Below are positions 25,774 through 30,991 of a stretch of 64,000 nucleotides of DNA, one piece after another. Source of the DNA: an uncultured Cytophagales bacterium (GTDB lineage: Bacteria > Bacteroidota > Bacteroidia > Cytophagales > Thermoflexibacteraceae); contig CALHUI010000007.1 of NCBI GenBank assembly GCA_938039675.1, forward strand, positions 1 through 64,000. The letters are read 5' to 3'. Within the stretch, counting starts at the first letter, position 1; the number at the start of each line of letters is the position of its first letter. The notes beneath the pieces were generated by a model, which saw only the letters and a program-made list of their open reading frames with translations, was not told where the DNA came from and searched no databases. Position numbers and translations under genes: made by a program.

Positions 25774-27639
25774 TTATTTGTTTATCAGGTTAAAAATAAT
25801 ATTTTGCCTAACAGCTATGTTGTAAGATTCTGCAAACTTTTGCCATGTGGCAATGCTGTCGGCAGTAATAGACAGCGAATCAACAAAAATAGTGCGTACA
25901 ATCATTATGCCGTCTATTTTTTTCTCATAGCGAACGGAAAAGCCGAAATCGGGGTATCGGCTGTCGGTATCGGGCGGCAGAAAAGCAACCTCCCATCCTT
26001 CGAGCAACTTGATAAATTGCTTGTGGATAAGCGTAAAGGCGTATTCTAACTCCCAATGATTGAATGGAACGGCCGTCGGCACCCATGTTTCCTGATAACG
26101 GGCTGTTATCGTATGAGGATTAAAAAATATCTGTCGGTTTTGATGAATCATCGCATGATTTGCCGTATAACTGTATTGTACTTGCTTGGCCGTATCGGAC
26201 AAAACGGATTGTGTTTGCCACACTTCCGTTGTAACATTACGGCTGTTAAACAGGGGCTGCCTGTTGTGAAGTTCGCTTTTAAAGTAGCCGCTTCCGCTAA
26301 TACGGCCTGTTACTCTGATTGTATCGGCAGGCGCGAGCACGACTACGGCACTGTCTTGTAAAACATTGTGCCTTGCCTCTACAATCGGTACAGTTCTGAT
26401 TTCGTAGCTATGCCGCGATTTGCCTATGAGTGCTTCTTTTCCCTGAATCATGGCAGAAGGCATACCAAACGGCAAGTCGGGGTCTGTGGCATCCAGAAAA
26501 AACATGCGGTTGTCTATTTGCACGGCAGCAATCATATGGTTATCTACCATGGGTGTGGGCAACTCTGTATAGCGATAGGGCAAGCGGCGCGTACCAATCC
26601 ACGTAAAATAGGCTTCAATGCCTGCACGCTTCATGAGTGCCACCAGCAGGGCAGTCATGTCTTTACAGTCGCCATAGCGTTTGCGCAGCACGTCGGCGGC
26701 CTTTCGCGGAATCAACCCACCGTACCCGTCTTCAAAAGCAATATATTGAATGTTGTGCTGCACCCACTTAAAAATGGCACGTGCTTTTTCTTCCGGTGAT
26801 TGTAAGCCTGCCGTTAGGCTGTCCGCTGTCTGTTGTAAAAGGTTGCCATTGTTTTCTTCATCTGTGCCGGCAACCAACCCGCTATACCACGCGTACAAGT
26901 CGGCCACATTGGACAGTATCGGTATTTTCAGTTTGTTGGATATGCGGTAATAGGCAATCCGCGGGATAATATGCGGTGCTCGATAGCTAATCTCCTGTTC
27001 TCCCTCTTTTTTTCGGAATACAGGTATGTTGTTTGCTTTCCAACTGTACACCCAATCTTTCCGATGTTTTTTTTGCTGAAATACAACTTGTGTGATATTA
27101 AAAGTTGAAAAATCGAGCTTGATGTGTCGGTCGCAGCGGATTTCAAACTCGCTCTGCCGTACGGGCAGCGAAGCATTAAAGTAATAAGTACCCAAAAAAC
27201 GCGGCTCTGAAAGCTCCTCTGTATAGTGGAGATAGGAGGTTGCGCCGCTGATAACACCCGGGAAAAGGAAAGTGCGCTCCATGTAGTCGTCATAGAAAAT
27301 GCCTGATTGTACGGCACTCTGGTCGCTAAATCGGGTAACATGAAGCGTATCGCCTTTGGGAGTTATGGTAAAGGCTTTGACGGTCAGCAGTTTGTTAAAT
27401 TTTGAGTAGCCGATTCGTTCTATGGCCGACAGGTTAGCACGCTGCGTACCATGCCTGATTATCAGCAGATTTTCGGACGAAACTTTTATCTGCCGCTGAA
27501 CAAATCGCAAGTATAATATGCGCTTTTTACGGAGAATAACCGTGGGAGCATCTTTTACTTCTGCATAGCCGATAGCGGCTGGCAGCAGGCACAGAATAAA
27601 ATAAACAATGTTGCAAAATTTCTTTTTAATCAATATCAT
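25774..27639 (-). CDS. DUF3857/transglutaminase-domain exported protein, triad intact
   Basis: A 621-residue exported protein with a signal peptide (residues ~1-26), DUF3857 in the N-terminal half and a transglutaminase/papain-like core: Cys325 in RYGDCKDMTALL, His in MVDNHMIAAV, Asp in FLDATDPDLP. Such proteins are widespread in Bacteroidota and are thought to be periplasmic proteases, amidases or cross-linkers; the substrate is unknown. The C-terminal ~180 residues form a beta-rich DUF3858-like domain. Its start overlaps the preceding AP2-domain gene by 14 bases, and it is followed 40 bases on by its Cys-less relative. Confidence 0.87.
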   Translation of the reverse strand: MILIKKKFCNIVYFILCLLPAAIGYAEVKDAPTVILRKKRILYLRFVQRQIKVSSENLLIIRHGTQRANLSAIERIGYSKFNKLLTVKAFTITPKGDTLHVTRFSDQSAVQSGIFYDDYMERTFLFPGVISGATSYLHYTEELSEPRFLGTYYFNASLPVRQSEFEIRCDRHIKLDFSTFNITQVVFQQKKHRKDWVYSWKANNIPVFRKKEGEQEISYRAPHIIPRIAYYRISNKLKIPILSNVADLYAWYSGLVAGTDEENNGNLLQQTADSLTAGLQSPEEKARAIFKWVQHNIQYIAFEDGYGGLIPRKAADVLRKRYGDCKDMTALLVALMKRAGIEAYFTWIGTRRLPYRYTELPTPMVDNHMIAAVQIDNRMFFLDATDPDLPFGMPSAMIQGKEALIGKSRHSYEIRTVPIVEARHNVLQDSAVVVLAPADTIRVTGRISGSGYFKSELHNRQPLFNSRNVTTEVWQTQSVLSDTAKQVQYSYTANHAMIHQNRQIFFNPHTITARYQETWVPTAVPFNHWELEYAFTLIHKQFIKLLEGWEVAFLPPDTDSRYPDFGFSVRYEKKIDGIMIVRTIFVDSLSITADSIATWQKFAESYNIAVRQNIIFNLINK

Positions 27640-28117
27640 TCAGGCTGTTGGTAATGCCGAAGCGCTTCATCGACTCTTCGTTGTAAGCTTTTGCGGCAGC
27701 TTGAGGAGTATCAAAAACTCCCAGATAAATTCTTTCGCCTTTGTCGTAAATAACGGCACGATACTTTTTACCGTCTTTTGAAACGCCTCGGTAGTGGTCA
27801 TGCGAACTTTGTTGCCGTCTCAGATTCGACATCGTTGTCCATTCCAAGTTTTCTATGCGGCAGTCCAGCTTATTGCCGTTTTTCATTCTTACGAAAAGTT
27901 TCTTGCCTGCGTTAGGCTTTTGTAGGAATTGGTCTGCCAGCAGTTTGTGCATGTAGTAAGTTTGTATCCGCCCAAATTGGGTAAATTGAAGCACTGCATA
28001 ACCGGCAGAATGGATACGCCAGCCTTTATCCATGCCTTTCTTTTTGAGAAAAGAGAAACCTTGGCGGCATAGTTTAACCTTGCAGTCGGAGTTAATCAGT
28101 TGCAGATACATACGCAA
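27626..28117 (-). CDS. degenerate HNH-type plus AP2/ERF-domain DNA-binding protein
   Basis: 163 residues. The middle resembles the HNH_3 homing-endonuclease fold (MHKLLADQFL and GNKLDCRIENLEWTT), but the usual N-H-x-D-G-N active-site stretch reads FVRMKNGN, so the general-base His is gone. The C-terminus (residues ~110-155) is a complete AP2/ERF domain: YRGVSKDGKKYRAVIY, then YLGVFDTPQAAAKAYNEES, a DNA-binding domain best known from plant regulators and also found in mobile HNH nucleases. It probably binds DNA without cutting it. An alternative start is Met29. It overlaps the next gene by 14 bases. Confidence 0.8.
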   Translation of the reverse strand: MRMYLQLINSDCKVKLCRQGFSFLKKKGMDKGWRIHSAGYAVLQFTQFGRIQTYYMHKLLADQFLQKPNAGKKLFVRMKNGNKLDCRIENLEWTTMSNLRRQQSSHDHYRGVSKDGKKYRAVIYDKGERIYLGVFDTPQAAAKAYNEESMKRFGITNSLNDID

Positions 28118-28747: not shown

Positions 28748-28812
28748 AGAAACAGCTTTGTCAAAGTTGTTTCTTTGACAAAGTTATTTGCAAAAAAACT
28801 ATCGCATGATAG

Positions 28813-29547
28813 CTATGCCTTTGCATAGAAAGACTCGAAGTCTTTCAATGTAATTTTTCCTTCGTAGAAGGCTTTGCCAATGATAGCCGCATAAACTCCC
28901 ATATCTTCAAGTTTACGTACATCGTCTAAACTGCTGATACCACCGCTTGCCATAATGCGCAAGTCGGGAAAACGTTTCAGTAGTTCGGCATACAAGTCAA
29001 AATCGGGGCCGGAAAGAGTACCGTCTTTTTCGTTGCTGGCACATTTGAGATATAGCAGGCTTTGATTGTAGAACTGTTCTACGAAATCGAACAGGTATAT
29101 GTCTGTGCCTTTTTGGCGACCTTTCACAGCTATTTTATTACCTGCTATTATGTCTGCACTCAAAATTACTTTGTTGCGACCATAAGTGAACAGCCACTCC
29201 GTAAAGATACTGGGCTGATGAATCGCTATGGAACTTACAGTCATCATTCGGGCACCATACTCAAAAACAGTAGCAGCTTCGCCATCGTTACTGATGCCGC
29301 CGCTAAAGTCCACTTCTATATTATTTGTGTGGCGGGTAATCATTCCCAGCACTTCGTAGTTAGTTACCTTACCGGTTCGTGCACCGTCTAAGTCTATCAG
29401 GTGTAACCTGCGAATGCCGTGTTCTTCAAACTGCTGTGCCAATTCCAAAGGGCTTACATCGTAGGTGGTATAGTCGTCGTAATTGCCTTGTTTCAAACGC
29501 ACGCATTTACCACCTAAAACAGACATAGAAGGGATTAGTTCAATCAT
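28813..29547 (-). CDS. HisA-like TIM-barrel protein with substituted active-site residues
   Basis: 244 residues, full HisA length, with conserved phosphate-binding parts: GGKCVRLKQGNY, RLHLIDLDGARTG, ASGGISSLDDV and IIGKAFYEGKI. HisA isomerises ProFAR in histidine biosynthesis using an Asp in the first strand (IPAxD), a central Asp and a Thr. Here the first-strand Asp is Ser (IPSMSVLGG) and the TDI segment before KDGTL reads CASNE, so the Thr is lost. The central Asp (LSADII) remains. No other his gene is nearby. It may be a re-purposed paralogue instead of true HisA, though automated annotation would call it hisA. Confidence 0.75.
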   Translation of the reverse strand: MIELIPSMSVLGGKCVRLKQGNYDDYTTYDVSPLELAQQFEEHGIRRLHLIDLDGARTGKVTNYEVLGMITRHTNNIEVDFSGGISNDGEAATVFEYGARMMTVSSIAIHQPSIFTEWLFTYGRNKVILSADIIAGNKIAVKGRQKGTDIYLFDFVEQFYNQSLLYLKCASNEKDGTLSGPDFDLYAELLKRFPDLRIMASGGISSLDDVRKLEDMGVYAAIIGKAFYEGKITLKDFESFYAKA

Positions 29548-29663: not shown

Positions 29664-30482
29664 TTACAGGTTCTTCACAAGCGGAATCCGATAATAGATG
29701 TGGTAGTTAAACGACAACTTCACGTTGCTGCGTATGGTGCCGAATCCGGGCACTTCGTTAGGGAGCAATCGGTCGGTATTACTCGGGCGACCGGCAAATT
29801 TGATGCGGAATGTATAGCCCAGATACAACTCGCGCCATACTGCTACGCGCAGCCCCATGGTCAGTTCCATCCAGCGATAGTTTAGGCGGTCGCTGATTGT
29901 TTCCGAAAATAAAGGAGCAGCAGGCATACCATTAAATCCCCATGGGGTGCTTCGGGCGGTGTATGCAGCCTCTTGCGCAAAATTAGCGCGGGCATAGCGC
30001 CAACCAACCATGAGGGCGTTTTTTCTGTCGGTAAAAGTTTTGTGCAATACGTTGTAGTCAAAACCTATCCGCCAGTAAGTGCCCGTATTGCTGTAACTGA
30101 CATTGCGCAGACTGTCTTTCGCATTGCGTTCCCGAAAGGTAGATGAATAGCCGACATCAGCAATCAGAAAGTTTTTGTTTCTATTGAAAGCCATATCGGC
30201 AGTAAGTTCAAAACGAGCGGTATTGGCGTAAAAATTTTTCAGGTTTTCACCAATAGTATTTCGGCCGAAAGGTGCACTTACCGCCCCATTCAGCCAGTAA
30301 GACAAGTCTGTACCTACACGCAGGGCATAAGGCCGCAACGATTGGGCTTTTGCCCATGCTTTCAGCCGTTTGCCAATCGGCTCGCGCAAGGTATCAAGCA
30401 TAATGGGAGCGGGTTGAGCCTTTGCGGCAAGGCATAGCAAAACAGCCGCAACGAGTAGTAAAAAAGATTGTCGGAATATCAT
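29664..30482 (-). CDS. outer-membrane beta-barrel-like protein (DUF6048-like)
   Basis: 272 residues with a signal peptide (RQSFLLLVAAVLLCLAAKAQ) and alternating hydrophobic/aromatic strands ending in NYHIYYRIPLVKNL, as in small outer-membrane barrels. The order, a lipoprotein followed by a barrel, matches the DUF6452-DUF6048 pair common in Bacteroidota. Its ATG shares one base with the TAA of the upstream gene (TAATG), a strong sign of translational coupling. Function unknown, probably an envelope pair. Confidence 0.65.
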   Translation of the reverse strand: MIFRQSFLLLVAAVLLCLAAKAQPAPIMLDTLREPIGKRLKAWAKAQSLRPYALRVGTDLSYWLNGAVSAPFGRNTIGENLKNFYANTARFELTADMAFNRNKNFLIADVGYSSTFRERNAKDSLRNVSYSNTGTYWRIGFDYNVLHKTFTDRKNALMVGWRYARANFAQEAAYTARSTPWGFNGMPAAPLFSETISDRLNYRWMELTMGLRVAVWRELYLGYTFRIKFAGRPSNTDRLLPNEVPGFGTIRSNVKLSFNYHIYYRIPLVKNL

Positions 30483-30991
30483 TACCAGAATAAGCGAATA
30501 TGAACGGTATCGGCACGTAAAACGACAAGTTGCGCAGCAATTTGTGCCGAGTCATACGGATTTTTGATAATCTGCAAGTTCTCAATGCGTCGGTCGTAGC
30601 CGCAGTCGGGAGAAACAATGCTCAGGATGCGTTTGTAAGTCAGCACTAACGTATCGCGTCGGGCGGGCGAGTCGGCAGGTGCGCCCGGTCTTCTGCCAAA
30701 AAATACAAACAGCGATGTGTCCCGCGAGGGGTCTAAGGGCAATGCCACACTGTTTGGCACAGGATTTTCAGAAGTGATACTGCTATACAGTATGCGACCG
30801 GCACGGTAAATTGTAATACCTCTACCCGTTTGTACGGAATCAAACCCCGGAACAAGCACGCGTGTGCTGCCCTTCCGATAAAATCGCACGATAGGTTCGC
30901 TGGAATGGCGCGAAGTGAACACACAATCTTCACAAGCAGCCAAAACTAACAGACCGTACAGGCAAACAAAACCGCGAATCAGTTTATTCAT
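30482..30991 (-). CDS. lipoprotein (DUF6452-like), first gene of a coupled pair
   Basis: 169 residues with a lipoprotein signal ending in the lipobox LAAC (LVLAACEDC). The mature part is beta-rich and has two further Cys residues (EDC, SPDCGYDRRIENL) that could form a disulfide. Coupled to the barrel-like gene by a one-base stop/start overlap. It is divergent from rodA. Function unknown; the DUF assignment is by context and pattern only. Confidence 0.6.
   Translation of the reverse strand: MNKLIRGFVCLYGLLVLAACEDCVFTSRHSSEPIVRFYRKGSTRVLVPGFDSVQTGRGITIYRAGRILYSSITSENPVPNSVALPLDPSRDTSLFVFFGRRPGAPADSPARRDTLVLTYKRILSIVSPDCGYDRRIENLQIIKNPYDSAQIAAQLVVLRADTVHIRLFW

Follow-up and report, generated by a model that had tools for sequence, protein, structure and literature searches.

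The window, by which we mean the whole stretch of 64,000 nucleotides analysed here, carries on its minus strand a coding sequence for 244 amino acids (28813..29547) with an ATG start. The open reading frame, a match to PF00977, and an AlphaFold2 model describe a HisA-like barrel without the catalytic Asp of strand 1, and we have given the name HisA2 to the clade that holds this gene. The protein scores 194.5 bits with the PF00977 profile, against a gathering cut-off of 23.6, and thus belongs to the His_biosynth superfamily. However, with TIGR00007, the HisA equivalog model, it reaches 187.2 bits and stays below the curated cut-off of 228.95. An earlier note on this DNA had said that routine annotation would label the protein HisA, which is true of Pfam but not of the NCBIfam HisA model.

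The motif IPSMSV stands where canonical HisA has IPAIDL, and Ser9 (29521..29523) replaces the catalytic Asp of HisA (D7 in Salmonella). The second Asp is retained in the motif LSADII as Asp132 (29152..29154; Salmonella D129), and the loop-6 Asp, D175 (Salmonella D176), is present as well, as in HisA. In strand 6, the protein reads KCASNEKDG (LKCASNEKDG), while the canonical HisA of the same genome reads ICTDISRDG. Here CASNE, residues 169–173 (29029..29043), replaces CTDIS, and it follows Lys168 (29044..29046), a group-specific lysine at Salmonella position 169. The phosphate sites are Gly83-Gly84 in strand 3 (29296..29301) and Gly202-Gly203 in strand 7 (28939..28944); all of these codons are on the minus strand. 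In the alignment with Salmonella HisA, S105 corresponds to Salmonella G102 and R144 to W145.

The AlphaFold2 model (pLDDT 94.2, pTM 0.91) places S9 in the strand of residues 3–11, D132 just after the strand of residues 127–130, and K168 in the strand of residues 166–171. The best matches among solved folds are mutants of Salmonella HisA and PriA D11N. The fold is the same as that of HisA, ProFAR isomerase (PF00977, TIGR00007; Salmonella 5abt/5a5w), with a VIA-align Z of 35.1 over 241 residues and an rmsd of 1.8, and it is shared with PriA, phosphoribosyl isomerase A (2y88, 3zs4), with a Z of 33.9. The strand register with position 170, taken with the literature on the L169R mutant of Salmonella HisA, suggests that K168 is turned toward the barrel, beside Asp132.

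Genes for DUF6452 and DUF6048 proteins lie directly upstream (29664..30991, minus strand), with 116 bases between the DUF6048 gene and the HisA2 gene, and this placement is kept in four genomes of the window's family (G000, G002, G003, and G009). Two genes downstream is a gene for an HNH/AP2 protein (27626..28117, minus strand); in G437 and G448 of family f87, relatives of it from the same BLAST cluster are likewise only two or three genes away from HisA2. A 4HBT-type protein is also a neighbour, no his gene is adjacent, and the gene is indeed outside any his operon, as had been claimed. The hairpin directly 3′ of the HisA2 gene (28756..28783, minus strand) is terminator-like, on weak evidence, since the region has 2 such sites where 1.3 are expected. 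A scan of the region for promoters and terminators gave no excess over shuffled sequences. An Rfam scan of 10 HisA2 loci returned three tRNAs only, and the window locus had no match.

The genome is 3.28 Mb, is listed as 100% complete, and has three full-length PF00977 genes: hisF (C11:106910), a canonical hisA with the motifs IPAIDL and CTDISRDG (C3:371199), and the window gene, whose protein is 47% identical to the canonical HisA. It also contains hisD, trpC, and trpF (PF00697). The reading in the earlier note would fail if the window gene were the only HisA of a prototrophic genome. This is not the case, since the second, canonical hisA was found on C3, with hisF and hisD also present.

The HisA2 clade and its conserved residues

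We searched 19 relatives, 296 genomes of the class, 242 of the order, and 247 of the phylum, together with the best 80 loci of a GTDB contig scan. Two kinds of sequence were found across these samples, canonical HisA and HisA2. In a tree of 137 rows, from which L115, L141, and repeat loci were excluded, the 28 HisA2 sequences then known form one clade inside the Bacteroidota HisA with support of 100/98, in a bootstrap that had not fully settled. The family phylogeny that had been proposed as a check thus places the window protein in one old paralogous clade. Later sequences were sorted by two profiles, A2 and A3, and L173, which was ambiguous between them, was dropped before counting. In the end, 93 distinct HisA2 sequences were compared with 120 canonical HisA.

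HisA2 was read in at least 87 of the 242 sampled Cytophagales genomes, from 11 families by hand count (f1, f4, f5, f7, f8, f80, f81, f83, f84, f87, and f89). It was not seen in the sequences read from f9 and f10, which are of the L073 type (L145, L255, and L297). Among the matches listed, those with a named source come from Cytophagales (Algoriphagus, Belliella, and MAGs) or from two MAGs with no name beyond Bacteroidetes and Bacteroidia, so that HisA2 was seen here only in Cytophagales and in two Bacteroidota MAGs without an order name. Two matches at 1e-60 occur in 7 of the 247 genomes of the phylum sample, all from the window's order, by a criterion that a low-scoring genome outside the order with HisA2 only would escape. 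The 21 loci newly fetched from that sample were 2 HisA2, from family f8, and 19 canonical HisA. There were also matches in 75 plasmid records, every one below 60% identity. We found no description of a HisA2 paralog in the literature searched, and the available part of a survey that covers his genes across the Bacteroidota (PMC8305728) lists hisA/hisF, hisH, hisF, and hisN/gmhB paralogs without mention of a second hisA.

The 93 HisA2 sequences share nine invariant positions, G44, D52, G83, G84, A99, D132, K168, G202, and G203, at a median pairwise identity of 48%. The strand-1 Asp is found in 120 of 120 canonical HisA and in 0 of 93 HisA2, counts that for the first 27 + 24 rows are partly by construction, since the profiles were built from sets presorted by the strand-1 motif; the tree and the rows added later are free of this sorting. 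Position 9 is S in 36, W in 17, A in 15, Y and T in 9 each, P in 2, and V, N, L, F, or G in 1 each. The replacement of the strand-1 Asp by Ser, noticed before in the window protein alone, is thus part of a nonacidic position 9 throughout the group. Position 168 is K in 93/93 HisA2 and never in canonical HisA, which has I in 84, F in 23, L in 11, and V and T in 1 each, while Asp132 is present in every sequence of both sets. Position 7 is S in 78/93 HisA2 and A in 120/120 canonical HisA.

The altered TDI segment, read as CASNE, is correct for the window protein but does not describe the group. Position 170 is T in 53, S in 29, A in 10, and V in 1, so that loss of the Thr is a minority trait, and position 171 is D in 77, E in 11, S in 4, and N in 1. 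Similarly, the claim that the phosphate-binding loops are kept holds for both Gly-Gly pairs (93/93), but the equivalent of Salmonella G102 is Gly in only 18/93, compared with 120/120 in canonical HisA, and is Ala or Ser in 73/93. At the W145 place, position 144, there is Trp in 80/93 and Arg in 11/93, the window's genus among the latter. Some active-site positions drift, since D175 is kept in 82/93 and position 225 is Lys in 47 and Arg in 40 of the 93.

For HisA2, dN/dS (NG86) is 0.054 (G000–G002), 0.043 (G000–G003), and 0.039 (G002–G003), from three unsaturated genus pairs, with dS of about 2.4 in the latter two and saturation in the pairs with G001. Canonical HisA gives 0.069, 0.060, and 0.073 for the same three pairs. 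These low values show that HisA2 is under constraint by purifying selection.

Gene neighbourhoods and retention without amino acid pathways

The neighbourhood set comprised 76 HisA2 loci, with at least one genome counted twice (G423 = L040). L205 and L267 were dropped because the gene was not returned by the gene caller, and Pfam was run on representative neighbours. There is no conserved operon across families in the 76 loci. A histidine kinase and a response regulator are at −2 and −1 on the same strand in 11 loci of two families, and a lysA-type decarboxylase is on the opposite strand in 12 loci, at −1 in 6, at −3 in 2, and at −4 in 4. In the three f84 loci examined (L216:3369-6720, L217, and L218), trpF-trpB-trpA is directly upstream and HisA2 follows after 26–29 bases; purE is within three genes of HisA2 in three loci. 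To us, these recurrent neighbours reflect ancient gene order and not a functional link, and a conserved operon was rejected, none being shared across families.

HisA2 is the sole match to the A2 profile, which picks up canonical HisA well above threshold, in eleven genomes (G016, G018, G455, G327, G315, G328, G339, G350, G371, G391, and G399). G369, which also has a single match, was left out because hisD is present and contamination is 7%. A true HisA would be expected to occur with the histidine pathway, whereas HisA2 is found in these eleven genomes without canonical HisA. In the five of them that were tested (G016, G018, G455, G327, and G315), hisD is absent, and a PF00977 search found another full-length protein in G016 (185 bits) and none in the other four. 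These relatives, then, appear unable to make histidine. Furthermore, trpC is absent from nine of the eleven, being present in G016 and G327, and of the nine genomes without trpC, seven have no PF00697 protein, G371 has one, and G455 has a marginal match (23 bits). Among 15 genomes, six have trpC and all six also have a PF00697 protein, so that in this set HisA2 was not seen where tryptophan synthesis lacks a trpF. Because it is kept without canonical HisA, without hisD in the genomes tested, and mostly without trpC, HisA2 is very unlikely to be a histidine or tryptophan isomerase. Six genomes (G284, G502, G437, G385, G395, and G442) have, besides trpF, a second weak PF00697 match (22–82 bits), possibly a divergent TrpF paralog.

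Comparison with known barrels and possible functions

HisA, TrpF, and PriA are a standard model for one barrel enzyme turning into another. In the part of the work on Salmonella HisA that is available (PMC7591586), L169R gains TrpF activity with HisA activity abolished, and changes at G79, D129, W145, and D176 likewise give TrpF and lose HisA activity. The same part describes G102 as a position of the phosphate-2 site that is often mutated en route to TrpF, and its published table has no TrpF-gaining mutation that affects the strand-1 Asp. From the available part of a simulation study (PMC9088769), Arg169 of HisA L169R contacts D129 and the PRA carboxylate, and in PriA, too, a basic residue, R143, handles the carboxylate of the substrate. 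That residue is in loop 5 in PriA but in strand 6 in HisA2, where the place of the PriA catalytic Asp11 is nonacidic. The laboratory-evolved L169R enzyme (5g2h) has its basic residue at the same position as K168, whereas HisA2 is a natural lineage, has Lys instead of Arg, and has also lost the strand-1 Asp. Like HisA, HisA2 has the Gly-Gly phosphate sites and Asp132; unlike HisA, it has Lys168 and no strand-1 Asp, has mostly Ala or Ser at the Gly102 place, and is kept in genomes without canonical HisA. The basic residue at the 169 place and the Ala or Ser that mostly replaces G102 make it probable that the pocket has lost its fit to ProFAR, and TrpF chemistry is not expected because the strand-1 Asp is gone.

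HisA2 very probably does a job other than histidine synthesis. The earlier proposal of a new reaction or a noncatalytic role is well supported by the old paralogous clade, by purifying selection, and by the eleven genomes that keep HisA2 without canonical HisA. The invariant K168, which that proposal overlooked, leads us to lean toward a new reaction. On the sequence evidence, we predict, with about half of our belief, that HisA2 is a neofunctionalised phosphosugar enzyme with K168 and D132 in its active site. It would be a HisA paralog of single origin inside the Bacteroidota that took a new function in Cytophagales, active on a phosphorylated ligand other than ProFAR. K168, presumably facing the barrel and paired with Asp132, may hold the ligand by an acidic or carbonyl group or react with that group, much as the available account of the L169R simulations has Arg169 meeting Asp129 and the substrate carboxylate. 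Its pathway would have to persist in auxotrophs for histidine and tryptophan. Against this explanation, the loci share no operon, positions of the active site such as D175 and Lys225 drift, and the position of HisA2 behind trpF-trpB-trpA in f84 could hint at a link with tryptophan.

The loss of the catalytic Asp to such varied residues (S, W, A, Y, T, P, V, N, L, F, and G), with both phosphate sites kept in 93/93, could also be explained if HisA2 were a pseudoenzyme, acting as a sensor or partner protein through the binding of a phosphoribosyl-type metabolite; the K168–Asp132 pair would then be a ligand or structural contact. The gene is directly behind the histidine kinase and response regulator in 11/76 loci, although this link is limited to two families. 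The active sites of pseudoenzymes usually drift, whereas the charged residues D52, D132, and K168 are invariant here and cluster in the strands that bear the HisA active site, and we consider this explanation possible but doubtful. A different role for K168 follows from the DeoC-type class I aldolases (PF01791), in which the strand-6 lysine forms an imine with the carbonyl substrate. If K168 did the same, HisA2 would be a Schiff-base enzyme. The strand-6 Lys precedes the strand-7 GG by 34 residues in 93/93 HisA2, compared with 32 residues in 10 and 42 in 3 of 15 DeoC-type proteins of relatives, the script having caught an earlier GG in the other 2, and HisA2 members with K-T-T-D resemble the K-T-S-T of DeoC. 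However, the Lys-Thr likeness may be due to chance. The DeoC profile comparison aligns residues 193–221 only, 29 columns of strand 7 at a probability of 72%, and not strand 6, so that it shows no significant kinship over the Schiff-base strand, and for class I FBP aldolase the probability is 0.1%. HisA2 also lacks the second lysine that DeoC has ahead of the strand-7 GG, position 199 of HisA2 being M, L, A, I, F, or others. Thus, we think a Schiff-base enzyme rather unlikely.

Could HisA2 be a PRA isomerase (TrpF) and so a natural equivalent of the Salmonella L169R mutant? The basic residue at position 169, the replacement of G102 by Ala or Ser (73/93), the Arg at the W145 place (11/93, including the window's genus), and the trpF-trpB-trpA genes directly upstream in the three f84 loci point in this direction. 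However, the window's genome and the f84 genomes already hold a PF00697 trpF, nine HisA2 genomes have no trpC, and the strand-1 Asp that is lost here is untouched by the TrpF-gaining mutations in the available part of PMC7591586, which makes this function highly improbable. Even less credible is a spare HisA that still isomerises ProFAR. The fold and both Gly-Gly sites are retained, and Trp144 (Salmonella W145) is found in 80/93, although it is Arg in the window protein. Against this, there is a canonical HisA in the same genome, eleven genomes keep HisA2 without one and the five tested lack hisD, the strand-1 Asp is gone in 93/93, and L169R kills HisA activity in Salmonella, as reported in the part of PMC7591586 available. 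We therefore rejected both HisA proper and a TrpF substitute, on the canonical hisA and PF00697 trpF of the window's genome and on retention without hisD or trpC.

The observation is real and stronger than first described: the Asp is lost across the clade, an invariant lysine has been gained, and HisA2 persists where canonical HisA is missing. Unless HisA2 turns out to be a Schiff-base enzyme, it adds a subfamily to a known fold and is not a novel type of system. If it is one, a HisA barrel would have been rebuilt to resemble a class I aldolase, with the strand-1 general-base Asp traded for an invariant strand-6 lysine, and Cytophagales would possess a conserved phosphosugar reaction, so far undescribed, that is kept even in amino acid-auxotrophic relatives. 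The invariant lysine is a direct handle in the search for a substrate of these conserved proteins, which Pfam alone would file under histidine biosynthesis. HisA2 appears to be a natural case, completed long ago, of a duplicated hisA, mostly still in one genome with the canonical copy, in which the catalytic base has been given up and a basic residue occupies exactly the position at which laboratory evolution arrived. The nearest row in the tree, sister to the HisA2 clade (97/82) on a long branch, is a HisA from a Cyclobacteriaceae MAG (L082:8001-8702) with an intact motif and hisF adjacent, possibly offering a view of the HisA2 ancestor.
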